A stretch of 21,921 nucleotides of DNA from a virus, in IMG/VR virus record IMGVR_UViG_3300025082_002529, positions 1-21,921 of that record; one strand, written 5' to 3'. Made by a program: the position numbers and the translations under genes. Numbering within the stretch: the stretch's first letter is position 1; each line of letters begins with the position of its first letter. Shown piece by piece: positions 1-17,905 of this stretch. The notes under the pieces were generated by a model. That model saw nothing but the letters and a program-made list of their open reading frames with translations, was not told the origin of the DNA and did no database searches.

Positions 1-35
1 CGAAGATAAAAAAAGTAATCAGCGAGTTATACTAA
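1..35 (+). CDS. C-terminal end of an upstream gene (partial, off left edge)
   Basis: Reading from base 3, the frame codes for KIKKVISELY and stops at TAA 33-35, which overlaps the next ATG by one base (TAATG). The same TAATG junction occurs at 6133-6137 and 17903-17907, so it is a normal gene boundary in this genome. Only about ten residues are visible and no family can be assigned. Alternatively this is non-coding: the frame of the next gene is also open upstream to the window edge. Confidence 0.3.
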   Translation, partial: KIKKVISELY

Positions 36-748
36 TGATAGTTGCAATTCAGACAGCGAGAAAGGGAAGCAAGACAGTTGTTGATAAGAACATATCAGAT
101 GTCAATGGAAAGCCGCTGTTTCTTCATTCTATTGACATAGTAAATGAATCAAGACTCATTGATCATGTGTTTGTTAGCACAGATTGCCCTGTAATCAAAT
201 CATGCTCAAAAGATGGAAAATTTTGTGTGATAGACAGACCTGAGTATCTTGCAGGAGATAAAAGCTCGCATCATGAAACAATGATACACGCAATATTGGC
301 AGCAGAGATAGTACTGCGTGAAAAAATTGATCTCATCGTTTTCTTATTAGGAAACACAATTTGTGCACCGTCAGAAGATGTAGATATGTGCATACAGGAT
401 ATGATAAATAATAAAAGAATTGACTCAATACAGTCTGTTTCTAAGTTCAATATGTTCAATCCATATAGAGCCTACACAATCAGCCCATCAGGAAATTTAA
501 TAAACTTCATTGACTCTTCAAACATAGAAGCTGCAAATGATAAAAATAGCGCAGGCGATGTCTGGTTTAACAATGGATCGTTTTTTATTTGTAGAAGAGA
601 CACGGTAATATTGAAGAAAGGTTTGAGTCCTTTCCCATGGTTGGGCCATAATATCAAGCCCTTCAAAGAAGATACGAAAATGGAAGTCGATGCACAGTGG
701 CAACTTAATTGGCTAAGAAACAGTTTTATGGAAAAAAATGAAAAATAA
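35..748 (+). CDS. Divergent CMP-sugar cytidylyltransferase (NeuA-like paralogue)
   Basis: This 237-residue protein belongs to the acylneuraminate cytidylyltransferase family, which activates nonulosonic or related sugars with CTP. The nucleotide-binding N-terminus AIQTARKGSK (residues 4-13, then DKN 17-19) corresponds to the IPARGGSKG...KN motif. The C-terminal stretch near EVDAQWQLNWL resembles the acidic metal-binding segment. The family's LQPTSPLR motif is replaced by LLGNTICAPS, and the first motif is degraded too, so substrate or activity may differ from the canonical copy encoded at 2356-3006. The start at 35 puts the nucleotide-binding motif where the family has it and makes a TAATG junction; no good Shine-Dalgarno is seen, so coupling is likely. 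The frame is open to the left edge, so a longer protein cannot be excluded. Family assignment is fairly sure; function is not. Confidence 0.75.
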   Translation: MIVAIQTARKGSKTVVDKNISDVNGKPLFLHSIDIVNESRLIDHVFVSTDCPVIKSCSKDGKFCVIDRPEYLAGDKSSHHETMIHAILAAEIVLREKIDLIVFLLGNTICAPSEDVDMCIQDMINNKRIDSIQSVSKFNMFNPYRAYTISPSGNLINFIDSSNIEAANDKNSAGDVWFNNGSFFICRRDTVILKKGLSPFPWLGHNIKPFKEDTKMEVDAQWQLNWLRNSFMEKNEK

Positions 749-2339: not shown

Positions 2340-2355
2340 ATAAAATAGGTGATCA

Positions 2356-3006
2356 ATGAAAATTTTTGCCGTAATACCTGCAAGAGGTGGGAGTAAGGGT
2401 GTTCTTAAGAAAAACCTTTATCCGCTTAATGGAAAGCCCTTACTACATTACAGCATCAACGCCGCGCTTTCATGCCCGCTTATTGATGCCGTATACATCT
2501 CATCAGATGATAATGAAATTCTAGACTACGCAGAAGATGAGGGTGCTCGCACAATAAAAAGACCCACGGAAATATCAACTGATACATCAACTTCTGAGTC
2601 TGCATTATTACATTTTGCTGAAAATGTAGAATTTGATCATCTGATATTCTTACAGGCAACTTCTCCTTTGATGACACCTGAGCTACTAGAGGCAGCGCTA
2701 AGTGTTTATATTAGAGGCAAGTATGATTCTGTAGTCTCTGTATTTGAAGATCATGGATTCTGGTGGTACTATGATGACCCGCTGTATAATCCGATGAATA
2801 GGCACATGAGACAGGAAAATGCAAATAAGCGATACAAAGAGTCTGGAATGTTTTACATAACTTCTAAAAAAGCACTGCTGGAATCAAAATGTCGATTTTC
2901 AGGTAAGAGTCATTCATTTGTACATTCAAGAATAGTGGGATATGATATAGATGATTTAGATGACTTTAAGATAGTCGAAGCAATTATGGAGAAATTAAAT
3001 GTTTAA
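2356..3006 (+). CDS. neuA: CMP-nonulosonate (N-acylneuraminate) cytidylyltransferase, NeuA type
   Basis: This 216-residue enzyme couples a nonulosonic acid to CMP using CTP, giving the donor for glycosyltransfer. The motifs are canonical: IPARGGSKG at 7-15, KN at 19-20, KRP at 68-70, LQATSPLM at 99-106, and an acidic metal-binding cluster DIDDLDD at 197-203, of which D197 and D199 correspond to the Mg ligands known in NeuA. AGGTGA at 2347-2352 lies just ahead of the ATG. The gene overlaps the neuB-like gene by 8 bases, so the two are almost certainly cotranslated. The substrate could be sialic, legionaminic or another nonulosonic acid (LegF/PtmB homologues share these motifs); the sequence alone does not say which. 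Confidence 0.9.
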   Translation: MKIFAVIPARGGSKGVLKKNLYPLNGKPLLHYSINAALSCPLIDAVYISSDDNEILDYAEDEGARTIKRPTEISTDTSTSESALLHFAENVEFDHLIFLQATSPLMTPELLEAALSVYIRGKYDSVVSVFEDHGFWWYYDDPLYNPMNRHMRQENANKRYKESGMFYITSKKALLESKCRFSGKSHSFVHSRIVGYDIDDLDDFKIVEAIMEKLNV

Positions 3007-3850
3007 CCCTTACGAGAATAGTGAGCTACCTTTTATCATTGCAGAAGTTGGCATCAATCACAATGGTTGTTTAACAACAGCAAAGAAATTAATTGATGTA
3101 GCAGCGCAGTCAGGTGCAAATGCTGTTAAATTTCAGAAAAGAACTGTTGATGTAGTGTACACTCAAGAGTACTTAGCAGGTCATAGGGAGAGCCCATGGG
3201 GAACTACGCAGCGCGATCAGAAAGAAGGATTAGAGTTTGGTCATTCTGAGTACAAAGAGATTGATGAGCACTGTCTTAAAGCAGGGATCATATGGACAGC
3301 GTCCGCATGGGATATTAATAGTCAGCGCTTCTTAAGAGAGTTTAATGTGCCTTTTAATAAGATAGCATCAGCAATGATAACAAATATACCCTTTCTCGAT
3401 GCAGTCGCCTCAGAAAGAAAGCATACTTTTATTTCAACTGGAATGACAGAGTATGAAGATGTTGATACTGCTGTATCAGTTTTTGAGGGCTATAATTGTC
3501 CATTTACTCTTTTCCACACAGTGTCAACTTATCCTTGCGAGCTAGAGGATTGTAACATTAGTATGGTCACTAGTCTTATTGATAAATATGAATGCCCGGT
3601 AGGCTATAGCGGCCATGAAAAGGGAATTTTGCCATCTGTGCTTGCTGTTTCTCTCGGCGCTGTTGCAATTGAGAGACATATCACACTTGACAGGACAATG
3701 TACGGTTCAGATCAGTCTGCTTCGTTAGAGCCATATGGTTTTAAGCGACTCATTAGGGACTGTAAGAATGCCAAGACTATTCTGGGTGACGGTGAAAAAA
3801 GATTTATAGATGAAGAAAGAGTTATAGCTGATAAGCTAAGATATTTTTAG
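2999..3850 (+). CDS. neuB: Nonulosonate synthase, NeuB type, lacking the SAF domain
   Basis: This protein condenses phosphoenolpyruvate with an N-acyl hexosamine (ManNAc or a di-N-acyl relative) to form a nine-carbon acid. The TIM-barrel motifs are intact: AEVGINHNG at 15-23, VKFQKR at 43-48, STGM at 146-149, YSGHEKG at 203-209, ERHITLDR at 225-232 and SLEP at 242-245. H206 and H227 are 21 residues apart, as are the two Mn-binding histidines known in meningococcal NeuB. At 283 residues it is shorter than the usual ~340-350: it stops after DKLRYF, where the family normally links to a C-terminal antifreeze-like SAF domain that closes the partner subunit's active site in the dimer. GGAG at 2988-2991 gives a 7-base spacer to the ATG. 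NeuB, LegI and PseI are all possible. Catalytic residues look present; activity without SAF is unproven. Confidence 0.88.
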   Translation: MFNPYENSELPFIIAEVGINHNGCLTTAKKLIDVAAQSGANAVKFQKRTVDVVYTQEYLAGHRESPWGTTQRDQKEGLEFGHSEYKEIDEHCLKAGIIWTASAWDINSQRFLREFNVPFNKIASAMITNIPFLDAVASERKHTFISTGMTEYEDVDTAVSVFEGYNCPFTLFHTVSTYPCELEDCNISMVTSLIDKYECPVGYSGHEKGILPSVLAVSLGAVAIERHITLDRTMYGSDQSASLEPYGFKRLIRDCKNAKTILGDGEKRFIDEERVIADKLRYF

Positions 3851-3854
3851 TAAT

Positions 3855-4625
3855 ATGAACTTATCTGTATTACAAGGTAGATTATCTTCTCCAGAAAACG
3901 GCTATCAGGAAACACCAGTTGATTGGCACAGAGAGTTTAAGCTGTTAAATGAAGTGGGCTTATCACATGTAGAGTGGGTTATCACAAAAAATCAATTTTT
4001 TAATAATCCATTTTTCACTAATGACTTAGATAAGTTTTCTATTAGCGCTGTCTGTGCAGATAATGCAGTTGATAATAATATTTTTAATAGAGATTTTTTT
4101 ATAGGAAGCATGTATCCGATTTGTGAAAAGAGCATAGCGCATGGAATTGACACAGTAACACTTCCGCTGCTGGATGAGTCAAAAGTAGATACTGATGAGA
4201 AGAAGCAAAAGATAATCAGCTTGCTTATTGAGTGCTGCAAAAGATATCCACAGCTTAGAATTAATATAGAGGCTGAGCTTGATTCGAAAAATTTACTAGA
4301 CATTATCCTGTCTCATGAGAATTTAAAAGTTACATACGATACAGGAAATTTGACAGCTATGAACTTTGATCATGAAGAGTACATAGCTGAGACCTTTAAT
4401 CACATCACTAATGTTCACTTAAAGGATAGAAAATTCAACAAAGGTGAATCTCAAATTTTATTTGAAGGAGATACTGACTTTGATGTGATTTTTAGCACAC
4501 TATCTACATTAGGATATAAAGGTTTTTTTACATTGCAAGTTGCAAGAGAGAAACCTGGAAATGAAATTGATCATATAAAAAAAATAGCAAACACATTTAG
4601 GAGGATGTATGAACAATATTTTTAG
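3855..4625 (+). CDS. Sugar isomerase/epimerase-like TIM-barrel protein (AP-endonuclease-2 superfamily)
   Basis: This 256-residue protein resembles the xylose-isomerase-like superfamily, whose members isomerise or epimerise sugars and sugar phosphates with a divalent metal. Candidate metal ligands appear in family order: E139 in INIEAE, D162 in YDTGN, H188 in NVHLKDR and a last ligand near LQVARE (E232). The EGDTDFD segment at 204-210 matches the conserved GxGxxDF loop. The N-terminal LSVLQGRLS also fits the family. It lies four bases after the neuB-like gene and overlaps the SDR gene by 17 bases. Relatives occur in bacterial nonulosonate clusters, so it may help supply or modify the sugar precursor; that role is inference. 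Confidence 0.72.
   Translation: MNLSVLQGRLSSPENGYQETPVDWHREFKLLNEVGLSHVEWVITKNQFFNNPFFTNDLDKFSISAVCADNAVDNNIFNRDFFIGSMYPICEKSIAHGIDTVTLPLLDESKVDTDEKKQKIISLLIECCKRYPQLRINIEAELDSKNLLDIILSHENLKVTYDTGNLTAMNFDHEEYIAETFNHITNVHLKDRKFNKGESQILFEGDTDFDVIFSTLSTLGYKGFFTLQVAREKPGNEIDHIKKIANTFRRMYEQYF
4599..4604 (+). promoter_or_regulatory. Strong Shine-Dalgarno inside the preceding gene
   Basis: AGGAGG is followed by a 4-base spacer and the ATG at 4609. It lies within the last codons of the isomerase-like gene and fixes the start of the SDR gene despite the 17-base overlap. Confidence 0.75.
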
Positions 4626-5427
4626 ACTTGACGGGAAGATAGCATTAATTACTGGTGCAGGAGGGCTGCTTGGACCGAAACACGCAGAAGCGATTATTGA
4701 GTTTGGTGGCAAGGTCATTTTAACTGACCACCATTTAAATAGGGTTGAAGAAAAGGCATATCAGCTTAATGAGATGTACGGCGCAGGTAGTGCCACAGCT
4801 TATCACATGGATGTAACTGATCCACGGTCTGTACGAGCAGTTGTTGATCACTGTGACAGGATTGATATTCTCATTAATAATGCAGCGAAAGATCCAAAAG
4901 TGAAGAAATCAGGGAGTTTGACACCAGAAAGCAGATTTGAAACGATGACATCAGAGTATTGGCAGGAAGGAATTGATGCGGCGCTTAATGGTACATTTTA
5001 CTGTTCGCAAGCAGTTGCAAACAAAATGATCCGCGATAATGTGAAGGGAGTAATACTCAATATCTCTTCTGATCTTGGCGTAATTGCGCCAGATCAACGA
5101 ATATACAGAAAGCCAGGAACACCTGATCATCTGCAGAATGTAAAGCCAGTGACATACTCAGCTGCAAAGTGGGCAATTGTTGGAATGACAAAATATCTTG
5201 GTGTGTACTTTGCTCAGAAGGGAATCAGAGTTAACTGCTTGAGCCCGACAGGTGTCTACAATGACCATCCTGAAGAGTTTGTTGCTAAGTTATCAAACAT
5301 TATTCCAATGGGTAGAATGGCAGACATTGATGAGTATAAAGGTGCAATAGTATTCTTGTGCTCTGATGCTAGTTCTTACATGACAGGCGAGAACATGGTC
5401 ATTGATGGTGGAAAGACAGTATGGTAG
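4609..5427 (+). CDS. Short-chain dehydrogenase/reductase in the nonulosonate cluster
   Basis: This is a classical SDR of 272 residues. It shows the cofactor-binding TGAGGLLG at 15-22 (a variant of TGxxxGxG), LINNAA at 88-93, catalytic serine at NISS 151-154, YSAAK at 183-187 with catalytic Y183 and K187, and SPTGV at 212-216. It ends in GENMVIDGGKTVW, typical of SDR C-termini. It would oxidise or reduce a sugar or sugar-nucleotide hydroxyl with NAD(P). It resembles the PtmA-like SDRs known from flagellin nonulosonate loci of Campylobacter, which suits the neighbours, but SDR substrate specificity cannot be read from sequence. It starts from a strong AGGAGG and overlaps the cupin gene by 7 bases. 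Confidence 0.82.
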   Translation: MNNIFRLDGKIALITGAGGLLGPKHAEAIIEFGGKVILTDHHLNRVEEKAYQLNEMYGAGSATAYHMDVTDPRSVRAVVDHCDRIDILINNAAKDPKVKKSGSLTPESRFETMTSEYWQEGIDAALNGTFYCSQAVANKMIRDNVKGVILNISSDLGVIAPDQRIYRKPGTPDHLQNVKPVTYSAAKWAIVGMTKYLGVYFAQKGIRVNCLSPTGVYNDHPEEFVAKLSNIIPMGRMADIDEYKGAIVFLCSDASSYMTGENMVIDGGKTVW

Positions 5428-5810
5428 AGACCGTCGCTCGATTCTTACCAAGAAAGATCAACTTGTATATGAAACATGTTGACAAGGGCTGGGGCTGGGA
5501 GCGATGGATATGCAACGGCCCAGAGTATTGTGGAAAGCTTTTATTTTTTGAAGCTGACAAAAGATGCTCTTGGCACTATCATAAGCTAAAAGATGAGGTC
5601 TTTTATTTACAATCTGGCTTAGTGATCGTGAATTATTCAGAAGATGATGATCTAGAAAATGCATCACAACAAATATTGAACCCAGGTGAAAATTTCCATG
5701 TCTATAGAGGTCTAAGACACCAGATGATAGCCCTTCAGGATTCAGAGTTGTTTGAATTTTCAACTCAGCATTTTGATGAGGATAGTCATAGAATAGTTAA
5801 GGGTGATTAG
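5421..5810 (+). CDS. Small cupin-domain protein, sugar-phosphate-isomerase-like
   Basis: This single-domain cupin of up to 129 residues has candidate metal ligands H52, H54, E59 and H100 in the order H-x-H-x(4)-E...H. KGWGWERWI at 22-30 resembles the N-terminal side of the cupin domains of mannose-6-phosphate isomerases and GDP-mannose pyrophosphorylases. Such stand-alone cupins occur in surface-polysaccharide loci and probably bind or isomerise sugar phosphates. The ATG at 5421 overlaps the SDR stop and has a GGTGG upstream; a later ATG at 5469 (MKHVDKGWGWE) would give 113 residues and starts nearer the domain. Fold is fairly sure; reaction unknown. Confidence 0.7.
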   Translation: MVETVARFLPRKINLYMKHVDKGWGWERWICNGPEYCGKLLFFEADKRCSWHYHKLKDEVFYLQSGLVIVNYSEDDDLENASQQILNPGENFHVYRGLRHQMIALQDSELFEFSTQHFDEDSHRIVKGD

Positions 5811-5814
5811 TTTT

Positions 5815-6135
5815 ATGAAAAAAATATACTGTTTTGACATTGATGGTACAATTTGTACAATCACAGACGGTACGTATGAAGATGCTACACCCCATAAGGG
5901 AAGAATTGCAATGATCAATAGGCTTTACAATGAAGGACACATAATAAAGTATTTTACTGCAAGAGGGTCTACGACAGGGATAGATTGGTCTAAAGTTACA
6001 GAAAGCCAGCTGTCAGACTGGGGTGCTAAGCATCATGAGCTTCACTTCGGTAAACCACATTACGACATGTATATTGGTGATAAAGCGCTAAGTGATAAAG
6101 TATTTTTTGGAACGACAATATTTGAGGAATTTTAA
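5815..6135 (+). CDS. Small HAD-family phosphatase-like protein
   Basis: This 106-residue protein has HAD motif I FDIDGT (residues 7-12; D8 nucleophile, D10 acid/base), a motif II-like YFTARGS, and a lysine/acidic pair in GKPHYDMYIGDKA. It has no cap domain, like the small capless HAD proteins found in capsule and LPS loci. It may remove a phosphate from a sugar intermediate, possibly in this same pathway, but the substrate is unknown. I chose ATG 5815, after the cupin stop and 11 bases past AAGGG (5799-5803), over a GTG at 5803 that would add four residues and overlap the cupin gene. Confidence 0.75.
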   Translation: MKKIYCFDIDGTICTITDGTYEDATPHKGRIAMINRLYNEGHIIKYFTARGSTTGIDWSKVTESQLSDWGAKHHELHFGKPHYDMYIGDKALSDKVFFGTTIFEEF

Positions 6136-6989
6136 TGAGCATTCCAACAATAGGAATAGTCGGCCAGGGCTTTGTAGGCTCAGCAATACGAGTAGGCCTT
6201 GAGAATTTTTATGAAATTCTAACGTATGATTTAGACGAGACAAAGTGTAACTCAACACATGAAGATGTGTGCTTGAAAAGTGATATAGTTTTTATTTGTC
6301 TTCCTACGCCTATGCGCACATCAGGTGAATGTGACACCCGGATACTTGAACGTGCAATTAATAAAATAGAGAGTGTATGTTTTAAGTCGTATGAAACAAA
6401 TAATCCAATACTTGTTATAAAATCAACAATTCCTCCAGGCACAACTGAAAGAATAAATAAAAATTGTAAGTTATCTGTTTGTTTCAGCCCAGAATTTTTA
6501 ACAGAAGCAAATTCTTTTGATGACTTTAAAAATCAGACGAGAATTATTATAGGTGGGCCCCGTCCAGAAACAGGAAAAGTAAAGCAGATGTTTAGACGTG
6601 CATTTCCTGAGATTCCGATAATTAAGACAGGATCAAATACTGCAGAGACTGTTAAGTATTTTATTAATTGTTTCTTGGCTACAAAAGTTATATTTGCAAA
6701 TGAAATGTATGATATATGCTCTGCTGCAGGAATTGACTTTGATAAAGTTACAGAGTACGCATTATATGACAAGAGAATTGGGAGTAGCCACTTGATGGTA
6801 CCAGGCCCAGATGGTGATAGGGGATTTGGTGGCCACTGTTTTCCAAAGGACATGGAAGCCTTGATCTACTTTGCCAAGCAGATGTCTATAGATCCAAAAC
6901 TTTTAAAAAATGTATTGGATAAAAATGATTCATTGAGAAAAAATAGAGACTGGGAAGTAATGAAAGGCCGGGCAGTAAGTGACGACTAG
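6135..6989 (+). CDS. UDP-glucose/UDP-ManNAc dehydrogenase family, lacking the C-terminal domain
   Basis: This family oxidises a UDP-hexose C6 alcohol to a uronic acid with two NAD+. The Rossmann motif is at 7-15 (GIVGQGFVG), with KSTIPPGTT at 96-104, SPEFLTEA at 118-125, K174 and N178 in the K...N central-helix motif, and the active site GGHCFPKD with C235 and D239. At 284 residues the protein ends soon after the central domain and lacks the UDP-binding C-terminal third that makes typical members 390-450 residues. It is therefore naturally truncated, or the missing part is supplied elsewhere or not needed. It starts at a TAATG junction with GAGGA at 6124-6128. Candidate substrates are UDP-Glc, UDP-GlcNAc and UDP-ManNAc. 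Confidence 0.82.
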   Translation: MSIPTIGIVGQGFVGSAIRVGLENFYEILTYDLDETKCNSTHEDVCLKSDIVFICLPTPMRTSGECDTRILERAINKIESVCFKSYETNNPILVIKSTIPPGTTERINKNCKLSVCFSPEFLTEANSFDDFKNQTRIIIGGPRPETGKVKQMFRRAFPEIPIIKTGSNTAETVKYFINCFLATKVIFANEMYDICSAAGIDFDKVTEYALYDKRIGSSHLMVPGPDGDRGFGGHCFPKDMEALIYFAKQMSIDPKLLKNVLDKNDSLRKNRDWEVMKGRAVSDD

Positions 6990-7881
6990 TTTAGTGACAG
7001 GAGGCTGTGGTTTTATAGGAGGGCATATTGTTGATAGGTTAGTTTCCCTCGGCCACCACGTCACTGTTATAGATGATTTGTCTGCACCAGAAAATGAAGA
7101 TTTTTACTTCAATAAAGATAAATCAAGTGTAGCGTACGTGATCAAAGATGTGTCAGAAGATGATTGTAATGAGTATTTTTCTGGTGTTGACTATGTTTTT
7201 CATCTGGCGGCAAGAAGTCGAATCCAACCGACCATAGACGATCCAGAGCAGTGTTTTAGGGTGAACGTTCTAGGCACACAGAGGGTCCTGGAGTGGTCCA
7301 GGATGTCCGGTGTGAAGAAACTTGTATATTCAGGTACGTCATCATTGTATGGTAAACAGAATCCAATTCCGTTCACTCCAAACATGCCCGCGCACTGTCT
7401 TAATCCGTACTCGATGTCAAAGTGGATGGGTGAGCAAGTTTGTGAGCTATACTTTCAACTGTACGGATTGCACAGTATTGTCTTGCGATATTTTAATGTT
7501 TACGGCCCTAGGGAACCGCTAAAAGGCCAGTACGCACCGGTGATCGGACTTTTTAAACGCCAAGAGGCAAATGAAGAGCCGATAACACTTGTTGGAAACG
7601 GTCTTCAAAGAAGAGACTTTACGTACATTGATGATGTTGTCGATGCAAATATGTGTGCAATAGGCGCAGATGGAATTAAACACGGTGTTTATAATGTGGG
7701 AACAGGAAGAAATTATCCGATAATTGAGATTGCACACATGATAAAAAGAAAAAGTTCAATTGTTCACATCCCATCCAGACCAGCCGAGGTCAGAGAGACG
7801 CTAGCAGATATTGAATCTACGATAAGAGATCTTGGATGGGCACCGAAGTTTAAGTTGAGGGACACAGTAAATTCTTATTAA
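6979..7881 (+). CDS. NAD-dependent UDP-sugar epimerase/dehydratase (extended SDR), GTG start
   Basis: This is a 300-residue extended SDR of the GalE/WbpP type that probably epimerises or otherwise remodels a UDP-sugar, possibly the uronate from the preceding dehydrogenase. It has VTGGCGFIG at 6-14, FHLAAR at 74-79, SGTSSLYG at 118-125, catalytic Y144 and K148 in YSMSK, and LRYFNVYGPRE at 169-179. The reading frame overlaps the previous gene by 11 bases. GTG at 6979 is needed because the Rossmann motif begins only five residues in; AAAGG at 6963-6967 is a distant Shine-Dalgarno. It lacks the pattern I would expect for UDP-xylose synthase, so a 4-epimerase is more likely. It ends the first polycistronic block. 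Confidence 0.83.
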   Translation: MTTSLVTGGCGFIGGHIVDRLVSLGHHVTVIDDLSAPENEDFYFNKDKSSVAYVIKDVSEDDCNEYFSGVDYVFHLAARSRIQPTIDDPEQCFRVNVLGTQRVLEWSRMSGVKKLVYSGTSSLYGKQNPIPFTPNMPAHCLNPYSMSKWMGEQVCELYFQLYGLHSIVLRYFNVYGPREPLKGQYAPVIGLFKRQEANEEPITLVGNGLQRRDFTYIDDVVDANMCAIGADGIKHGVYNVGTGRNYPIIEIAHMIKRKSSIVHIPSRPAEVRETLADIESTIRDLGWAPKFKLRDTVNSY

Positions 7882-8826: not shown

Positions 8827-10086
8827 ATGACTGAAAATGGGAAGCTTAAAGTTTTGGTTTTGTCTGATCACGCGTTATCAACAAGCGGCGTTGGAACGCA
8901 AACTAGACACTTAATTAATGGTCTTTTGGAAAAAAACAAGTGGTCATTCAGACAGTTTGGCGCTGCACTAAAGCATAATGACTACAAGACAATTGTTGTT
9001 AATGAAGACTTTATTATTAAACCAATTGATGGGTTTGGATCACCTGAAGTTATACGTGTGGCTCTCGCGACAGAAAAACCAGACATTATGTTCATTTTCA
9101 CAGATCCAAGATTTTTTACGTGGCTTTTTGATATAGAGGATGAGATACATCAAATATGTCCAATTGTCTGGTGGCATGTTTGGGACAACTATCCATATCC
9201 CGAATTCAATAATTCCTATTATGATGCTACGGATAAGATTAACTGTCATTCACACATGACATACAAGATGATCAAAGAGAACGGTAGGCATGCTGACAAG
9301 ACATCTTTTATACCTCATTCGATTCCAAATGAATTGTTTCATAAACTTTCAGACGAGGATATTGAAAAACACAAGAAGAATCTATTTGGTGACAGGAATG
9401 ATAAGTTTACAGGAATATGGGTTAATAGAAATGCAAAAAGAAAGAGACCAAATGATGTTCTTGAGTCGTGGAAATTATTTCTAGATAAGTTAGAAGAGGA
9501 CGAAGGCCACCGCTCTGCTAAGCTGATAATGCACACAGATCCGTTGGACGGTGAAGGCCCGAACTTATTCGTAGTGTGTGAGATGCTGGGTATTGTTGAT
9601 AACGTTTTCTTTTCAAGAGACAGACTTGACTTTGAAAAAATGAATGTTCTGTATAATGTTTCTGACTTTTGCATAAATATTTCATATGCAGAGGGCTTCG
9701 GATTGTCAACACTTGAGTCGATGATGACCGGAACACCGATAATCGCTGCTAAAACAGGTGGTTTGACCAGACAGGTAACAGATCACAGGGATCAAACAGA
9801 AAATGGTGTTGCATTGGATATTGATACTACCGTGATGGTGGGTAGTCAAACAGTCCCTTACATCTATGAGGATTATGTCTCTAATGAGAACACTGCGAAA
9901 GCTATAAGATCGCTGTACGACGAAATTCAAGACGAAACCAGAAAAAGAATTTTGAGTGAAAAAGTTTTAAGTTACGCGACGACAGAGTTTAATTATCAGA
10001 AAACTATTGATTTGTGGCACGAAAGTATGTTGGATGCTATCGAAAAATTTAAAGATAGAGAGAGCTGGTCTAAGAAGACGTTTTAA
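8827..10086 (+). CDS. GT4-type glycosyltransferase
   Basis: This 419-residue GT-B glycosyltransferase would move a sugar from a nucleotide donor to a glycan, lipid or protein. The N-terminal domain begins KVLVLSDHALSTSGVGTQ, with the glycine-rich loop after strand 1. The C-terminal domain contains YAEGFGLSTLE, with E289 and E297 forming the EX7E donor-binding motif, then TGTPIIAAKTGG. No signal peptide or membrane segment is evident, so it should be cytoplasmic. AAGGGG at 8811-8816 is 10 bases from the ATG. It lies two genes after the UDP-sugar pathway and is followed nearly without gap by a second GT4, so the pair may act in sequence. Acceptor and donor are unknown. Confidence 0.85.
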   Translation: MTENGKLKVLVLSDHALSTSGVGTQTRHLINGLLEKNKWSFRQFGAALKHNDYKTIVVNEDFIIKPIDGFGSPEVIRVALATEKPDIMFIFTDPRFFTWLFDIEDEIHQICPIVWWHVWDNYPYPEFNNSYYDATDKINCHSHMTYKMIKENGRHADKTSFIPHSIPNELFHKLSDEDIEKHKKNLFGDRNDKFTGIWVNRNAKRKRPNDVLESWKLFLDKLEEDEGHRSAKLIMHTDPLDGEGPNLFVVCEMLGIVDNVFFSRDRLDFEKMNVLYNVSDFCINISYAEGFGLSTLESMMTGTPIIAAKTGGLTRQVTDHRDQTENGVALDIDTTVMVGSQTVPYIYEDYVSNENTAKAIRSLYDEIQDETRKRILSEKVLSYATTEFNYQKTIDLWHESMLDAIEKFKDRESWSKKTF

Positions 10087-10094
10087 GGTTGAAT

Positions 10095-11270
10095 ATGAAA
10101 GTTTTATTAAGAGCACCGCTACTAACTAACAGCGGATATGGTGTACACTCTCGACAAATATTCGAGTGGCTAGTCGGTAGAAATGATGTTGACTTGCACA
10201 CAGAGTGTTTGATGTGGGGACACTGTTCGTGGCTGATCAATACAGACTTACACGGAGGTTTAATAGGGCAGATAATGCATCACTCCCGTCCAATAGAGAA
10301 AGGTCAAAATTTCGATGTGTCTTTTCAGGTGCAGCTTCCAAACGAGTGGGATCCAAATTTAGCTAAAAAAAATATTGGTGTATCTGCATTTGTTGAAACA
10401 GATCGTTGTAATCCTGAGTGGATCAATCACTGTAATAAAATGAGCAGAGTCATAGTTCCGTCGACATTTACAAAAAACGTCGCTGTAAGGTCTGGGAAGC
10501 TGTCAACACAAATTGATGTTGTTCCTGAGTGGTATAATCACAGTATTATTAAAAAGTCAGCATGTGATAAAATAGCTAAATCTGATAAAAGATATAAGTT
10601 CAACACGAGATTTAATATCATGATAATGGGTCTGCTAACAAGCATGAATACAAATGATGATAGAAAAAATTTAGTTAACACAATTAAATGGATAATTGAG
10701 ACGTTTAGCGGCAATAAAGATGTTGGAATTGTCCTTAAGACAGGCTTAGGCCGGGATACTGTACAGGACAAATTGATATGCGAGGCCAACATAAGAAAGA
10801 TAGTTGACGAGTTCAGAAAATCAAGCTTATTTCCCAAGATTCACTTTTTGCATGGACATATGCAACCCAATGAACTAGGTGCACTTTATACTTCATCAGG
10901 TATAAAAGTTTTTGCATCTGCAACTAGAGGAGAGGGATACGGTCTGCCAATAATTGATGCGGCAGCAGCAGGAATTCCAATTATAGCAACAGGCTGGTCT
11001 GGACATTTTGAGTTTTTAGATCGTGACTTAGTGAGTTGTGTAGACTACAAGCTTAATGAGATAGCAAAATCAAGAGTTGACAATTCAATATTTTTAGATG
11101 GGTTCCGGTGGGCAGAACCTGATAGAGATAGTTTTTGCAATGCACTAACTGACATTTATGAAAACTATAAAATTGCAAAGGGCAAAGCAAATAAATTGAA
11201 GAAAAAAATAGTACCAGGCTTCCATAAAGAGAACATTAAGAAGTTATATGATAAAATTCTGGATGAGTAG
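10095..11270 (+). CDS. Second GT4-type glycosyltransferase
   Basis: This protein has about 391 residues. The N-terminus KVLLRAPLLTNSGYGVHS gives the first Rossmann strand and glycine loop. SRVIVPSTFTKN matches the hinge region of GT4 enzymes, and the C-terminal donor site reads RGEGYGLPIID with E280 but D288 in place of the second glutamate, then AAGIPIIATGWSG. The EX7E motif is thus EX7D, which is found in some members. I chose ATG 10095, 6 bases past AAGG (10085-10088), over a TTG at 10089. It is distinct in sequence from the preceding GT4, so this is not a recent duplication. Donor and acceptor unknown. Confidence 0.82.
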   Translation: MKVLLRAPLLTNSGYGVHSRQIFEWLVGRNDVDLHTECLMWGHCSWLINTDLHGGLIGQIMHHSRPIEKGQNFDVSFQVQLPNEWDPNLAKKNIGVSAFVETDRCNPEWINHCNKMSRVIVPSTFTKNVAVRSGKLSTQIDVVPEWYNHSIIKKSACDKIAKSDKRYKFNTRFNIMIMGLLTSMNTNDDRKNLVNTIKWIIETFSGNKDVGIVLKTGLGRDTVQDKLICEANIRKIVDEFRKSSLFPKIHFLHGHMQPNELGALYTSSGIKVFASATRGEGYGLPIIDAAAAGIPIIATGWSGHFEFLDRDLVSCVDYKLNEIAKSRVDNSIFLDGFRWAEPDRDSFCNALTDIYENYKIAKGKANKLKKKIVPGFHKENIKKLYDKILDE

Positions 11271-11278
11271 AGAAAAAT

Positions 11279-11602
11279 ATGAATGAAGTAGGAATATATA
11301 TAGGATGCATCTGTGCTCTGTTGCTTATCTGTATTTTCTTGACAAAAAAGCTTTACGATTTTTCTATTGTAATACTCAATGTAGAGGAATCGCTAGAAGC
11401 GTCTCTTGATATTTTAGATGAAAAATATAAATCAATGAATAAAATATTAGAAACACCAGTTTTTTTTGACTCTATTGAAGTGAGACAAGTTTTATCTGAT
11501 ATTCGTGATTGTCACAATGCTGTTCTTGTAGTTGCAAATAAATTAACAAATAACATAGGACTAACAGGTGATATTAAAGAAACGAGTAAAGAAAGCAAGT
11601 AG
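11279..11602 (+). CDS. Small membrane-anchored protein of unknown function
   Basis: This 107-residue protein is not recognised. Residues about 5-22 (GIYIGCICALLLICIFLT) form one hydrophobic helix followed by KK, consistent with an inner-membrane anchor leaving the rest in the cytoplasm (N-out). The remainder is polar and helical, with possible coiled coil from about 30 to 60 (VEESLEASLDILDEKYKSM). It lies 8 bases after the second glycosyltransferase, and its 3' end overlaps the sigma-factor-like gene by 35 bases, so the two are probably coupled. Confidence 0.6.
   Translation: MNEVGIYIGCICALLLICIFLTKKLYDFSIVILNVEESLEASLDILDEKYKSMNKILETPVFFDSIEVRQVLSDIRDCHNAVLVVANKLTNNIGLTGDIKETSKESK
11557..11560 (+). 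promoter_or_regulatory. Shine-Dalgarno supporting a GTG start
   Basis: AGGA is followed by a 7-base spacer and the GTG at 11568. It lies inside the small membrane-protein gene and favours initiation there rather than at a later codon of the sigma-like gene. Confidence 0.45.
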
Positions 11603-12314
11603 CGGTACCAAAAAGCCAAAGAAAACATTGTACTTTGGTAAGGAAGCACATCAGGCCATAGTAGAGTATCAACAAGCAGAGAGCAGTGATGACAAGCATG
11701 AAATTTATGTGCACAGAATTCGAAATTCATTTGATAAGTTAACAGAAAATTTAATTTACATCCATGGGTTTTCAAGGGACAAGGAACACTTTAAGATACT
11801 TAAATCTGACTGTGTTTCTTTTTTATACGAAACATTAGAGAAGTTTGATAAAGATAGAGGGTCAAAGGCCTTCTCTTACTTTAACGTCTGCGCAAAGAAT
11901 TTTCTAATAATAAGAAGTAAAAAATCAACAAAAAGCCGAAGAAGAAATGTTAGCTTAGAAGACTTTACAAGTATGAGTGCATCAGAGAAAAAAGCCATAG
12001 AGAATTATAAAATAATTCCTGCGCAAGATGATATAATGGTCCGCCGCGAGGATAGGGTGATACTAAACGATATCCTGTTAAAAATAAACACACGCGTCAA
12101 CAATCAGAATGAAAAACTGTGCATAGAAGCTATTATAAAAGTTTTTGAAAATATTGAAAATCTAGATTTTTTAAATAAACGTGCAATCTTTGTGTATCTA
12201 AGAGAGATCTCTGGGTTGAATCCTAAGCAGCTAAGTGTTGCCATATCAAACATAAGAAAGTATTATAGAGAAATTGTCGGAAATGATGATTTTTACATGC
12301 TTTTCAAGACTTGA
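11568..12314 (+). CDS. 55: Probable late-transcription sigma factor, T4 gp55-like
   Basis: This is a 248-residue protein. Residues about 45-125 resemble the gp55/sigma region 2 core: a helical stretch ending FDKDRGSKAFSYFNVCAKN (about 86-104), then a basic tail KKSTKSRRR. The FD...G.AFSYF...A.N pattern is typical of phage late sigma factors that direct host RNA polymerase to late promoters with the sliding clamp and gp33. A second helical segment (about 205-238) could be a helix-turn-helix. The C-terminus NDDFYMLFKT is acidic-hydrophobic like the clamp-binding tail of T4 gp55; that is inference. The GTG start overlaps the previous gene by 35 bases. Its place directly upstream of baseplate genes suits a late regulator. 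Alternatively it is a divergent phage sigma of another type. Confidence 0.62.
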   Translation: MILKKRVKKASSGTKKPKKTLYFGKEAHQAIVEYQQAESSDDKHEIYVHRIRNSFDKLTENLIYIHGFSRDKEHFKILKSDCVSFLYETLEKFDKDRGSKAFSYFNVCAKNFLIIRSKKSTKSRRRNVSLEDFTSMSASEKKAIENYKIIPAQDDIMVRREDRVILNDILLKINTRVNNQNEKLCIEAIIKVFENIENLDFLNKRAIFVYLREISGLNPKQLSVAISNIRKYYREIVGNDDFYMLFKT

Positions 12315-12322
12315 GGAAAGAA

Positions 12323-12676
12323 ATGAAAAAGGATGTCAAGACCCTCACACAGACAGAAAAAAAGTTACAAGATTTTGCAGACTTGTTGGACTCGCTTAGC
12401 AACGCAGAAGATAAGAAAAAATTATTGTGGCGCGAAGCATACCAGAATGCGCTGGAAGACAGGGAGAGCGCTAATATTTTAGTGACAGACCTATTGCTTC
12501 AGATAAGAGGTAATATCACAAATCATCAAACATACGGTTCAACAATGTCAAAGTATCTAGAGAGAATGGCAAAATCAAATGATCAGATACTAAAACTAGC
12601 AGAGTTAATTGCAAAGGAACAGGAAGGATTAAACGTAGTTTCTGCCGACGATATATTTAATGAAATAGGCGGTTAA
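12323..12676 (+). CDS. Small helical phage protein of unknown function
   Basis: This 117-residue, charged and largely helical protein has no membrane segment. A middle region (WREAYQNALEDRESANILV) and a C-terminal region (YLERMAKSNDQILKLAELIA) look amphipathic, suggesting a coiled-coil or small oligomer. ATG 12323 with GAGG at 12313-12316 (6-base spacer) is preferred to a TTG at 12311. It sits between the sigma-like gene and the hub gene. In T4, gp55 works with the small protein gp33, but I see no convincing gp33 similarity, so no function is assigned. Confidence 0.6.
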   Translation: MKKDVKTLTQTEKKLQDFADLLDSLSNAEDKKKLLWREAYQNALEDRESANILVTDLLLQIRGNITNHQTYGSTMSKYLERMAKSNDQILKLAELIAKEQEGLNVVSADDIFNEIGG

Positions 12677-12678
12677 TT

Positions 12679-14463
12679 ATGGCAAATGGGTCAAATAGTG
12701 ACGGAGTTGATCCCCGTCATTTCAAAGGTACCTCACCCGGTGTGCTTCATCCTAAACCTACGGGTGTGCAGAGCGGTCAGACATCGCAGTCACGAAGCTA
12801 CAATTTTTTGACTGCAATTGTTAAAGAAGTGATATCAAACCCTGAAGAGCTATTTTTAGATAGAATAGCTCATGCTTCATCAGGCGATCCAGTTGAGAAT
12901 CCAGCCGGCGATATCTCTGTGAAGCAGCAGCTAAGAGGCGCCTCAGGTGATCTTATCAGTATAGCGAATAAAGAGTGGGCCCCGTATGTTCCAATAAACT
13001 CAATCATCGCGCATATCATCGATGATCAAGCGGCCCCAGGTGCCGCGAAAGATGTCATTTGTTTTCCATTTTTTCCACCGCACCTATCACTTCCAGTAAA
13101 ACCTGGTGAGTATGTGTGGCTAATTCAGGAGGATAACAAGGGTTCTGATGTCTACTACTGGATGTGCAGGAAGGTTGGAATAAGACAGGTAGATGACATT
13201 AATCTTACACACTTAGAACGACAAAATGATGTAATCGACGCGTATAGAGCTTGGGAGAAGGGAACACCTCTCTCTGATGATAAAGTAGGTACGGTATCTG
13301 CATTTGAGAAAGCAACCGACGGTACCGGCTTAGAATCTGGTACTTCTTTTACTGAGATACACAGAACTTCCATAGCATTCAAGGAAGAGTTCACAGGTGA
13401 GCCTGTGCCACGACACGCGAAGGACTGTGCTGACTTACTTCTGCAAGGGTCAAATAATGCACACATTATGTTAGGCACTGAAAAGTTTACAATTCCTGAG
13501 GAAAATGAGAAGGACGACAGGGAACTAGCGCCATTTGAACCCACAAGAATGACTGGTGAGGCAAAGGTCGGCGCGCTAACAAAAAGAAAACCGCTGTCAC
13601 CTGCAATTGACTTATGCGTAGGCAGAAAGATCGGTGATCTTTTAGACTTTGCTGCAAAGACAAAGGATGACATGCCAGCACTGGGATTATCTGAGAGTAT
13701 GGCCGTGATGATAGGGGCCAGACCGACATCTGAAATTGACCTGCACCACATGGAAGTGGATAAGACACAGGAGGTCCAGGATAAGTTTGTAAAGGACAAG
13801 ACAGTTAAAGAGTTTATTGACTTCAATGCGTTGAACTGCTTAGGTAGGATATATATGACGAACTCAATTGACATAGACAGAACATTTGGGTTTGTCATGA
13901 ATGAGAATATCGTAGCTCGACCGGATACTAGCGGAGGTGCTGAAGGCTTCATCGGTCTAGATCCTAATGAGCGAGATGATGAGAACTCAGCAGACTTAGA
14001 CGTAACGGGTGATCAAGGGTACCCTTCAGAGCTAGTTGAAAGCATGAACTATGGAGCCATCGCAATTTACTCAACCAACTTAAGGCTACGTTCAGATGCA
14101 ACGACAAAAATTTATAATAGCCTCGGCAAGAGCATGATCACGATGACACCGCAAGGGGACATCTTCCTTCAGGCCAACACAGACGGCGGCGCAAAGATAA
14201 TCCTTGAGGCTGATGGGAACATTCGTATAGTTCCAGGTGAGAACGGCCTTGTGAAGATAGGTGAGGACCTGAAAACAGAGGACGAGGAAAATGCTGGAAT
14301 GAGGCCAGTGTGTGGCGCGATAACAGCAACTTCCTATGATCCAGCACCCGGTAGAAATGGACCATCGCTGATGGCACCCGGATTAGTCACAGGTGCTGCA
14401 GGCGGAGTTGAGCAAGGTGCCGGAGGCACCGGTGTCCTTGCGTCTAATGTGATACTAAAGTAG
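12679..14463 (+). CDS. 5: Baseplate hub/spike protein, gp5/VgrG-like
   Basis: This is a 594-residue tail protein. Residues about 100-170 (from PINSIIAHI through VICFPFFPPHLSLPVKPGEYVWLI to YYWMCRK) fit the OB-fold domain at the base of gp5/gpV/VgrG spikes. The C-terminal part (about 465-535) has short beta repeats such as GDIFLQA, AKIILEADG, NIRIVPG and LVKIGED, typical of a triple-stranded beta-helix spike. No lysozyme domain like that of T4 gp5 is apparent. The N-terminus is polar and the last 50 residues are rich in Gly, Ala and Pro. It is followed 9 bases later by the hydrophobic protein and then gp25 and gp6, the expected baseplate neighbourhood. Hub/spike is the best fit; exact T4 equivalence is not certain. 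Confidence 0.7.
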   Translation: MANGSNSDGVDPRHFKGTSPGVLHPKPTGVQSGQTSQSRSYNFLTAIVKEVISNPEELFLDRIAHASSGDPVENPAGDISVKQQLRGASGDLISIANKEWAPYVPINSIIAHIIDDQAAPGAAKDVICFPFFPPHLSLPVKPGEYVWLIQEDNKGSDVYYWMCRKVGIRQVDDINLTHLERQNDVIDAYRAWEKGTPLSDDKVGTVSAFEKATDGTGLESGTSFTEIHRTSIAFKEEFTGEPVPRHAKDCADLLLQGSNNAHIMLGTEKFTIPEENEKDDRELAPFEPTRMTGEAKVGALTKRKPLSPAIDLCVGRKIGDLLDFAAKTKDDMPALGLSESMAVMIGARPTSEIDLHHMEVDKTQEVQDKFVKDKTVKEFIDFNALNCLGRIYMTNSIDIDRTFGFVMNENIVARPDTSGGAEGFIGLDPNERDDENSADLDVTGDQGYPSELVESMNYGAIAIYSTNLRLRSDATTKIYNSLGKSMITMTPQGDIFLQANTDGGAKIILEADGNIRIVPGENGLVKIGEDLKTEDEENAGMRPVCGAITATSYDPAPGRNGPSLMAPGLVTGAAGGVEQGAGGTGVLASNVILK

Positions 14464-14472
14464 GAGTGTATT

Positions 14473-15474
14473 ATGGGAGCATTAAAAGATGTAGGTGCAA
14501 TTGGTGATGAGGCTGAGGATTCTTATGACCAGTTCAGGGCTGCTACACAGCAGACGCTGATAGACGGATATGCTTACGTAATTCCAGGTGTCGAAGATTC
14601 AGCAGTGCCCATACCTCTGCATGAGGATGCAGGAGGCCTCCCAGAGTCAGTCAGGCTTGGAGCTGCTGGCATACTGACCACACACTACGATGACTTCGAT
14701 GCTATGTGGGGAGACATGTACTTCAAAACAATGGAAGCTATTGATGATAACTTCCCGTCGGCAGGCATGCCACCTGTTACTCCGCTTATCGATCCAACAG
14801 TGCCACTTATTCCTATACTCACATTGGATCTAGGTATCCCGGACCTCCCTGAGTGGCTTCTTAAGCACCTCCCTCCGCTAATGATTAATCCAACCTGGCC
14901 ACCTGATTTTTTGGCTGCAGTGACTAAGGCATTGGCTTGTGAGCCAAAAGATCTTGCAAATATGTTAGTTGATATGGACAAAGACGGCGTCGTAGAGGCA
15001 GATAGAGTTATTGAGGCATTTGAAGCAATCTGTCCGATTACGATACCCACGATTACTATTCCTCCCATTCCGCCCCCGCCATTCCCGTGGGCATTCAACT
15101 TTGCTCCTGTTCCATCGATAGGCTTCCTCATTCCAAACTGGGAGTGGCCGAATCTTAATTTTTCGTTTTCATTGCTCTTAGAAATTGTTATAAAAGCAGG
15201 AATTAAATTTGGAGCAGCGATACCAGAGCTTATCTTAAAGATAGTCAACGGGATCGAAGAATTTCTTATTGCTTGTGTAATGTTTTTGATAGAAACTATT
15301 ATCGCTATGATCATGGAGGTCATGGCATTTTTATTGAAGATGGTCACATATGTAGCAGGTCTTATGACATTTCTTGCAAAAATAATTCCCGGTATGATAG
15401 TCGCAATTCTCGGTTGGGCCTTAGGAACCGGCATGATAGCTTACATAGCCGCTGGCTACTTTGATTTAATCTAA
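14473..15474 (+). CDS. Proline-rich baseplate-locus protein with hydrophobic C-terminus
   Basis: This 333-residue protein is not recognised. Residues about 105-215 are rich in Pro and Ile (for example PTITIPPIPPPPFPWAF near 191-207), and from about 230 to the end is nearly continuous hydrophobic sequence able to form three or four membrane helices (MFLIETIIAMIMEVMAFLLK; LAKIIPGMIVAILGWALGTG). Between them DMDKDGVVEADR (about 168-179) resembles a Ca-binding EF-hand loop (DxDxDG) without the usual final glutamate. AGGAG at 14462-14466 precedes the ATG. Flanked by hub and wedge genes, it is probably a virion protein, perhaps membrane-active during DNA entry or a tail-tip component. That is inference; an inner-membrane phage protein is the alternative. 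Confidence 0.6.
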   Translation: MGALKDVGAIGDEAEDSYDQFRAATQQTLIDGYAYVIPGVEDSAVPIPLHEDAGGLPESVRLGAAGILTTHYDDFDAMWGDMYFKTMEAIDDNFPSAGMPPVTPLIDPTVPLIPILTLDLGIPDLPEWLLKHLPPLMINPTWPPDFLAAVTKALACEPKDLANMLVDMDKDGVVEADRVIEAFEAICPITIPTITIPPIPPPPFPWAFNFAPVPSIGFLIPNWEWPNLNFSFSLLLEIVIKAGIKFGAAIPELILKIVNGIEEFLIACVMFLIETIIAMIMEVMAFLLKMVTYVAGLMTFLAKIIPGMIVAILGWALGTGMIAYIAAGYFDLI

Positions 15475-15532: not shown

Positions 15533-16054
15533 ATGAGTGATGCAACAAATGCAACAGTCTCGAAGTTTAGCTTTAAGAGCGTGGGCAACGTCGTTACTGC
15601 TAGAAAGTTTGATAATACTTCTACTATAGCATCGTTAGAAAGAAGTATCGGTATTATTACACCTATCAGGCAGAGTGGTAAGGGTGAAATATTTGACATG
15701 CACACAGACGTCAGAGAGCAGTTAAAGGATAATTTAAAGAATCTCATCATGACTAACCAGGGTGAACGACTATGTCGTCATGCTTTCGGTGCAAACTTAA
15801 AAAGTGTGCTTTACGATTACACAAAAGAGAAGGAGTATATAAATTTAGTCTCAGGATTGATAAGGCAGGCAACTGAGCAATCTATGCCTGCGCTTGATAT
15901 CACAGAGGTTGAGGTGCTTGTTTTGAATAATCTTGAGAAGAATAATGCAAACTTAGCAGGCTTGGCAAAATTAAAGTTAAGAGTAATTTTTTCTGTGCCG
16001 AGTATTCGTATAGAAAATTTAGGCGTTGAAGTTGAAATGTTTATCGGAGGATAA
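15533..16054 (+). CDS. 25: Baseplate wedge subunit, gp25-like (GpW/gp25 family)
   Basis: This 173-residue protein has the gp25/GpW signature: REQLKDNLKNLIMTNQGERLCRHAFGANLKSVLYD (about 62-96), in which the helix, the TNxGER turn and the following FG..L...L pattern are conserved across contractile tails and related injection systems. The protein sits in the baseplate at the wedge-sheath boundary in T4. Residues 1-50 are a longer N-terminal extension than in T4 gp25 (132 residues). GGAGA at 15518-15522 is 10 bases from the ATG. It follows the only spacer above about 20 bases in the structural block, and gp6 follows at once, as in other T4-like phages. Its presence marks a contractile tail. Confidence 0.9.
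   Translation: MSDATNATVSKFSFKSVGNVVTARKFDNTSTIASLERSIGIITPIRQSGKGEIFDMHTDVREQLKDNLKNLIMTNQGERLCRHAFGANLKSVLYDYTKEKEYINLVSGLIRQATEQSMPALDITEVEVLVLNNLEKNNANLAGLAKLKLRVIFSVPSIRIENLGVEVEMFIGG
16046..16050 (+). promoter_or_regulatory. Shine-Dalgarno deciding a TTG start
   Basis: GGAGG lies 10 bases before TTG 16061, at the very end of the gp25-like gene. It supports TTG as the gp6 start; no ATG is available near that point in the frame. Confidence 0.6.
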
Positions 16055-16060
16055 TTTAAA

Positions 16061-17905
16061 TTGGCAAGAAATATTAAAAAAGAAGTAGCAAAGCACAAGG
16101 ATATATCGTATACAAATCGTGACTTTGACAGTATTAGGAATGAGCTAAAAAGATACACAGCTACACACTTTAATCAAAATATTGTTGATATAAGTGATGC
16201 ATCGTTAGCGGGCCTTCTAATTGACCTTGCTGCGTATGTGGGTGATGTGATGTCGTACTACATAGACCATCAGTTTAATGAGACATCAATTGAGACAGCA
16301 ATTGAGACTGAGAATATTGAGAGGTTCATTAGAGAGGCCGGCGTTGAAGTAGCTGGTCCGTCACCTGCACTTTGTGAGGTGACATTCAGAATTAGAGTTC
16401 CTGCAACGCTTAATAATGGTGAGTACTCTCCGAATAGTGTGTATCTACCTGTAATTAAATCAGGGTCAGTTGTCTCGTCAACAACAGGTGTTGACTTTGA
16501 GTTACTTGATGATGTTGACTTTTCAGAAACTGACGCAGATGATGAGCTAGTTGCAACATTCAGGATTGGCCAGCTATCCGGATCAACACCTCTTAACTTT
16601 ATTTTAGAAGCGACAGGTGTGTGCACAAGTGCAAAGTCAAAGACAGATTCATTTCCAATAGGCGATACTGTTGAACCGTTTAGAAAAATTACATTGACAA
16701 AGACCGATGTCACAGAGCTAGTGTCTGTCTACGATAACGATGGCGACAATTACTATGAGGTGAGTTCTCTGACCCAGGATACTGTTTTCAAACGTCATGC
16801 GAATAGTAGACAAGATGCAGAGTACGCTCCCGAGCGCCTGCAGATTCTTCATGCGCCGAAGCGATTTGTCAAATTTAGAACATCAACAACAGGAAAGACA
16901 ACGATAAGATTCGGCTCCGGTGATGAGACAAAGTTCGATGAAGACATAATCCCAGATCCTTCAGATCACGCAGTCACGCTTTACGGTGATAGGGAGACAT
17001 CAACAAAGATCACGATTGATCCTAACAGTTTCCTGGAGACACAGACATTAGGCATCTCTCCTAGAAATACAACAATAACAGTGAACTACAGATATGGTGG
17101 AGGTCTAAAGCATAATGTGGGAGCTGGTTTACTAAATTCTGTAAAGACGTTGATCACGTCTTTTGGAACAGCAACACCAACATCCGTCGCATCATCAATC
17201 AGAGCGTCGACAACTGTGATCAATCAACAGCCAGCAGCAGGCGGAGAGGATGAGCCAACGCTAGAAGAGTTAAGAAATATCGCGCTGTTCAATAGAAACT
17301 CACAGAACAGGGTCGTCACTAGAGAGGATCTCATAGCAAGAGTGTACGGAATGCCAACTAACTTTGGAAGAGTATTCAGAGTGTCTGTAAGAGATAATCC
17401 AAATAATCCACAAGCTGCACAACTTCACATAATTTCTAGAAATTCTAATGGAAAATTAATACTGTCGCCTGACACTCTAAAGGAAAACTTAGGCTTCTAT
17501 TTGAGCCAGTTTAGAATAGTATCTGATGCGATAGACGTTCTCGATGCAGCTATAATTAATATAGGAATAAACTATTCAGTCACAGTTGATGCAGATAGGA
17601 ATTCGAATACAGTTTTGAATATCATTAATGCTAAATTAGGAAAATACTTTAATATAAAAAATTGGCAGATTGATCAGCCTGTTATCACCGGCGAGCTTGA
17701 AAATATCGTGCTAAATACTGCCGGCGTAGTTTCAATTGTGGAGTTTTCAATAGTTGGTAAGTCAGGAGTAATTGATGACTTGGTTTATACTGATGTCTCA
17801 TATGATCCAAGAAGATACATGGATAGAGGGTATCTATTTCCACCACGAGGTGGAATGATAGAGCTCAAGTATCCTAATGACGACATTGTCGGGAGTGTTA
17901 CATAA
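16061..17905 (+). CDS. 6: Baseplate wedge subunit, gp6-like
   Basis: This 614-residue wedge protein starts at TTG with GGAGG 10 bases upstream. The N-terminus matches the gp6/gpJ family: YTNRDFDSIRNELKRY (about 18-33), then SLAGLLIDLAAYVGDVMSYYID (about 48-69), where the LIDLxAYxxxxxxYY pattern is diagnostic. The middle holds beta-rich sequence, and a later segment EELRNIALFNRNSQNRVVTREDL (about 404-426) matches the VT.eDy motif of wedge proteins. In T4, gp6 dimers form the ring that joins wedges around the hub. The stop overlaps the next ATG by one base (TAATG). Same length class as T4 gp6 (660 residues). Confidence 0.88.
   Translation: MARNIKKEVAKHKDISYTNRDFDSIRNELKRYTATHFNQNIVDISDASLAGLLIDLAAYVGDVMSYYIDHQFNETSIETAIETENIERFIREAGVEVAGPSPALCEVTFRIRVPATLNNGEYSPNSVYLPVIKSGSVVSSTTGVDFELLDDVDFSETDADDELVATFRIGQLSGSTPLNFILEATGVCTSAKSKTDSFPIGDTVEPFRKITLTKTDVTELVSVYDNDGDNYYEVSSLTQDTVFKRHANSRQDAEYAPERLQILHAPKRFVKFRTSTTGKTTIRFGSGDETKFDEDIIPDPSDHAVTLYGDRETSTKITIDPNSFLETQTLGISPRNTTITVNYRYGGGLKHNVGAGLLNSVKTLITSFGTATPTSVASSIRASTTVINQQPAAGGEDEPTLEELRNIALFNRNSQNRVVTREDLIARVYGMPTNFGRVFRVSVRDNPNNPQAAQLHIISRNSNGKLILSPDTLKENLGFYLSQFRIVSDAIDVLDAAIINIGINYSVTVDADRNSNTVLNIINAKLGKYFNIKNWQIDQPVITGELENIVLNTAGVVSIVEFSIVGKSGVIDDLVYTDVSYDPRRYMDRGYLFPPRGGMIELKYPNDDIVGSVT

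Follow-up and report, generated by a model that had tools for sequence, protein, structure and literature searches.

Little is yet understood of how DNA crosses the inner membrane once a contractile-tail spike has passed the outer one. In T4, the central spike gp5 has a PAAR-type tip, gp5.4. In the T6SS, prePAAR/PAAR effectors with transmembrane domains, such as Tse6 and RhsA, are carried on VgrG, and their helices are proposed to enter the inner membrane of the target (PMC7773334). The tape measure protein pb2 of T5 has hydrophobic segments that are proposed to form a membrane channel (PMC10038345).

We analyzed the 21,921-base virus record IMGVR_UViG_3300025082_002529, referred to below as the window. 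The gene of interest (14473-15474, + strand) starts with ATG, is open over 333 aa and encodes a proline-rich protein with a membrane-like C-terminus (P0001). It lies between the gene of a gp5/VgrG-like central spike (12679..14463, +; 594 aa) and that of a gp25-like baseplate wedge protein (15533..16054, +; PF04965 at E 7.7e-5, a match that does not reach the Pfam threshold, together with weak PHROG matches to wedge proteins), so that its placement between hub and wedge genes, as given in the preliminary description, was confirmed. We call this position the slot and the gene the slot gene. It starts 10 bases 3' of the spike-gene stop codon, which is overlapped by a Shine-Dalgarno-like AGGAG (14462..14466, +). 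Downstream of the gp25-like gene is the gene of a gp6-like baseplate wedge protein (16061..17905, +; phrog_6 at E 2.4e-15 and phrog_219 at E 4.9e-15), which served as the basis of the tree described below. The spike gene of the window alone had no PHROG or Pfam match. A profile of 12 related spikes matched the central spike of the Anabaena myophage A-1(L) (8KEA, chain 8kea_D, E 5e-4) across a beta-strand stretch, indicating that the two spikes are related. In contrast to the present locus, none of the five A-1(L) baseplate components that the accessible part of its report mentions (PMC10966104) is a counterpart of the slot protein.

Several other features of the window were recorded. A run of sugar/nonulosonate biosynthesis-like genes (35-7881), judged by eye from the translations, is an unusual cargo adjoining the tail locus and includes two CMP-sugar synthetase-like genes as well as NeuB-like, SDR, cupin, HAD, UDP-glucose-dehydrogenase-like and epimerase-like genes. 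Two glycosyltransferase-like genes follow (8827-11270), the second of which matches phrog_2170 (E 8e-19), and their synteny with the tail locus is conserved in several relatives (L005-L010). Directly upstream of the spike gene, at 11279-12676, are three conserved genes present in almost all related loci, which encode a small protein bearing a TM segment at its N-terminus, an overlapping late-sigma-like protein (weak match, phrog_234, E 0.03) and a 121-aa coiled protein.

Related tail loci were gathered by scans with the gp6-like neighbor. Besides near-identical copies of the window slot gene (L001 and L002), divergent relatives of the slot protein were found on 12 other viral contigs, all between the spike gene and the gp25-like gene. 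Relatives occupy this position in L005, L006, L008, L010/L014, L028, L030/L033, L031, L039, L041, L057 and the frameshifted L104. In L104 (1488-2485), a frameshift, either real or a sequencing error, splits the slot gene into two ORFs in different frames. The family members are 312-378 aa long, and P0001 shares about 19-29% identity with its relatives in an 11-row alignment. Because relatives this divergent retain an N-terminal MGxL, a central DPT and a G-x3-G-x-G-[LI]-like motif close to the C-terminus, the slot gene is real and not a chance ORF.

The preliminary description had staked its reading on homologues always adjoining gp5/gp25, and every homologue found is immediately flanked by the spike gene on one side and the gp25-like gene on the other; searches of nine whole records revealed no relative outside this slot. 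Single-sequence searches found no slot-protein relative in the cultured-phage collection or in the genome contigs. The L057 slot protein gave only insignificant, tape-measure-like matches, and the L028 and L057 spikes had no match in cultured phages. Against PHROGs and Pfam, P0001 reached a best PHROG E value of 0.079 and no Pfam match, a search of PDB sequences with the family profile yielded nothing beyond helical matches attributable to chance, and Foldseek found no fold match in BFVD or PDB. The slot protein is a real phage protein family that has no PHROG or Pfam name and is confined to spike-adjacent tail loci.

The same tail locus occurs with an empty slot in many relatives (e.g. L007, L009, L017 and L034) and with an unrelated protein in others. 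A second hydrophobic slot protein was observed in L043 (6179-6781), L047 (6299-6841), L048 (6329-6823) and L053 (6320-6868); it is 164-200 aa long with 14-17 Pro and almost no Lys/Arg, and a small Cys-rich protein usually comes after it. Homology of this protein to the P0001 family was unsupported (profile comparison probability, 3.3%). Large hydrophilic proteins with apparent internal repeats lie between spike and gp25 in L060 (1267-2586, 439 aa) and L079 (6440-7360, 306 aa).

We modeled P0001 by AlphaFold2 with 11 aligned relatives, and the model was of modest confidence (mean pLDDT 66.7, pTM 0.62). It predicts a helical N-terminal domain (residues 1-188; 14473..15036, +), which begins with the conserved MGxL and contains the DPT motif at residues 107-109, followed by a proline-rich linker at about residues 189-228 (15037..15153, +), predicted to be disordered with pLDDT below 50, and then by long C-terminal helices at residues 228-259, 261-287, 291-317 and 321-329 (15154..15471, +). 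The C-terminus is thus predicted to comprise three long membrane-like helices plus a short fourth, and the conserved glycine motif G314-x3-G318-x-G320 (15412..15432, +) falls in the last hydrophobic segment. The relative L028 has the same layout by AlphaFold2. The polyproline middle noted earlier is present: P0001 contains 34 Pro (10.2%), and the stretch 'IPTITIPPIPPPPFPWAF' occupies residues 191-208.

Hydrophobicity is strong over the C-terminal 110 residues, which have a mean Kyte-Doolittle value of 1.44 and contain 5 Lys/Arg. P0001 has 48 hydrophobic 19-residue windows against a mean of 20 in shuffles of the same composition (p=0.014); its single best window showed no excess over shuffles (p=0.21), and for over half of the relatives, including most of those outside the L006/L028/L030 group, the window count was not clearly above that of their own shuffles. 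In P0001, the predicted helices are long enough to span a membrane, at the modest confidence of the model. The three or four hydrophobic helices of the preliminary description are accordingly reproduced in the models of P0001 and L028 and accompanied by the window excess in P0001.

That description also read the loop DMDKDGVVEADR (residues 167-178; 14971..15006, +) as EF-hand-like and suggested calcium as a trigger. EF-hands have Glu/Asp at loop position 12, and P0001 has Arg178 there. In the alignment, DxDxDG is found in none of 10 relatives and is confined to the near-identical clade of the window (L001, L002); the relatives have EIDPSI, KIDSSI or EIDPTI at this position. The loop itself exists and the EF-hand label was an overstatement; the calcium trigger was rejected, because the loop has no position-12 acid and is unconserved in the family. 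The conserved feature at this site in the wider clade of the window is a Cys pair flanking a helical hairpin, Cys156 and Cys187 in P0001 (14938..15033, +), with equivalent pairs in L005, L006, L028 and L030 and none in the L008 clade.

Like the genes of Tse6 and RhsA, the slot gene adjoins a VgrG-like spike gene and its product bears predicted hydrophobic helices. Unlike these effectors, the slot protein has no PAAR domain, AARxxDxxxH motif or toxin domain, and its helices are C-terminal instead of N-terminal. P0001 had no Pfam match to PAAR, none was among the matches of the 11 members, and the prePAAR motif AARxxDxxxH was absent from all 11. No chaperone gene was recognized among the window genes scanned. 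Membership in the PAAR/prePAAR effectors was rejected, since PAAR and AARxxDxxxH are both missing. The proposed arrangement resembles T4 gp5/gp5.4 in that a tip module would work with a gp5-like spike; it differs from gp5.4 in that the slot protein has no PAAR match and is long and helical, with a linker and hydrophobic helices.

The C-termini of the spikes fall into two types. The type A tip, seen beside the slot gene, is beta/glycine-rich; in the window it takes up the last ~100 aa of the spike (14161..14460, +) with the pattern IRIVPG..VKIG ... GG ... TGxx[AS]xxV. The type B tip, present in most other loci, is a helical domain closing with a [IV][FY]GE-like motif. Using leave-one-out HMMs, we assigned all 12 readable spikes adjacent to a slot gene to type A, with margins of at least 20 bits. 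Spikes from loci without the slot gene were type B in 38 of 39 cases and confidently type A in none. The L024 spike belonged to neither type (5.5 versus 1.9 bits). Typing by regular expressions had misassigned L037 and missed several spikes, and was replaced by the HMMs.

On a maximum-likelihood gp6 tree of 52 rows, the presence of the slot gene requires 6 changes, at least 5 of them on well-supported branches. The tip type switched in the same direction as the slot gene in five of five independent pairs (p=0.0625, the floor of a sign test with 5 pairs, which is therefore unable to reach 0.05). The spikes of L010 and L007 are 72% identical in their cores and the gp25-like proteins 77%, yet the tips are unalignable (score 13) and the slot gene is replaced; compared with the distant L028, L010 shares 38% identity in the spike core and 42% in the tip (score 115). 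This mosaic indicates that the exchange covers the final ~55-65 spike residues plus the slot gene. The pairing with the spike tip was an unexpected new result that simple linkage could also give. These comparisons suggest that, in this family of uncultured contractile-tailed phages, the slot gene and the type A tip work together as one interchangeable module with which the bacterial membrane is breached.

We propose, with a probability of roughly one half, that the slot protein is a virion protein on the type-A spike whose helices insert into the inner membrane. The conserved helical N-terminal domain would dock on or beside the type-A tip, and the flexible proline linker would bear the bundle of three to four hydrophobic helices. 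When sheath contraction drives the spike past the outer membrane, these helices would be released, enter the inner membrane and aid DNA passage, possibly by forming a channel. The idea of a membrane-inserting protein ejected with the spike, put forward in the preliminary description, is thus retained in part: the predicted linker and helices and the placement in tail loci only are consistent with it, the tip pairing favors action together with the spike, and the calcium trigger has been dropped.

The slot protein would take over a role that, in other tails, is proposed for the tape measure and its hydrophobic segments. Like T5 pb2, it is a putative tail protein with predicted hydrophobic helices, and its family has weak profile matches to tape measure families; unlike pb2, it is a separate protein (312-378 aa) beside the spike, and a non-hydrophobic tape measure candidate exists as well in the 236-kb relative G002, the only genome in which slot gene and tape measure are both in view. 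This likely tape measure is a 636-aa protein whose gene follows those of the tail tube (phrog_4542) and of a gp26-like hub protein (phrog_150), and it has no hydrophobic segments (most hydrophobic window, 1.11). Its presence speaks against the slot protein as the length ruler of the tail, although it has no PHROG match of its own. The homologous candidates of G011 (800 aa) and G012 (809 aa) also lack hydrophobic segments, and the slot in these two is occupied by another hydrophobic protein poor in Lys/Arg. Those of G014 (1319 aa), G016 (1883 aa) and G017 (1616 aa) have several such segments, and the slot there is empty or hydrophilic. All candidates were assigned by position and weak homology, with PHROG matches backing the long ones only, and the pattern is no more than suggestive of replacement of a hydrophobic tape measure by the slot protein. 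G008 lacks both the slot gene and a tape measure candidate with hydrophobic segments; the complementarity is therefore not strict, and a strict form was rejected. Hydrophobic extensions of the spike were considered as a substitute in phages without the slot gene, and only weak segments were found. In G002 (C1, L105-L117), a MKITRxQLRxLI-like N-terminus recurs in many ORFs and may be a common signal for targeting or processing; two paralogous tail sheath-like proteins of 1049 and 988 aa are encoded next to each other.

A different reading, which we regard as rather unlikely, is that the slot protein resides inside the tail as a fragment split off from the tape measure, which would lie in the hub/tube lumen above the spike and be ejected after it instead of docking on the tip. 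The non-hydrophobic tape measure candidate of G002 would fit this, as would the tape measure profile matches of several family members (best 1.5e-10, in L057; phrog_1272 in 6 of 11 members), which cover helical and hydrophobic regions. However, the matched positions of phrog_1272 differ by member (550-669, 673-838 and 851-1024), as expected from composition and not from homology; on these grounds, the resemblance to tape measure proteins is probably compositional for the most part, and P0001 itself reaches only the E value of 0.079 given above. Moreover, the distal end of known spikes is directed away from the tube lumen, and it is this end that takes part in the pairing.

It is also unlikely, in our estimate, that tip and slot gene travel together merely as neighbors, the slot protein having a baseplate or assembly role (e.g. 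as a scaffold or hub chaperone) with neither tip contact nor a membrane role. The tip-coding 3' end of the spike gene directly adjoins the slot gene, and one recombination tract could therefore move both; the edges of the swap are sharp, inside the spike and ahead of gp25, and related phages are viable without the slot gene. Adjacency alone, however, does not enforce the pairing, because type-B spikes are accompanied by widely differing slot contents (empty, 79-439 aa, unrelated) with no switch to type A. Decoupled cases, that is, a slot gene without type A or the reverse, were not seen among the spikes typed, and three hydrophobic helices of 27-32 residues, as predicted by the model, would be odd in a soluble chaperone. 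A T6SS-like cargo or effector acting in the host envelope beyond DNA entry is very improbable: the gene follows that of a VgrG-like spike and its predicted TM helices recall the TMD-bearing PAAR effectors (PMC7773334), but neither PAAR nor the prePAAR motif was found, nor any domain of a toxin or enzyme.

Membrane insertion by a slot protein docked on the type-A spike predicts direct contact with the spike tip and membrane activity. If this is true, a dedicated protein whose presence tracks a single tip type would be a concrete candidate for the inner-membrane step. A tentative extension, of which we are more doubtful, is that a group of uncultured large myophages has moved membrane penetration from the tape measure to a swappable cassette, composed of the spike tip (the last ~55-65 residues) and a dedicated membrane-insertion protein, that is exchanged as a unit against a helical tip needing no partner. 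If true, spike tips would evolve via cassette exchange, like the VgrG/PAAR/effector sets of the T6SS.
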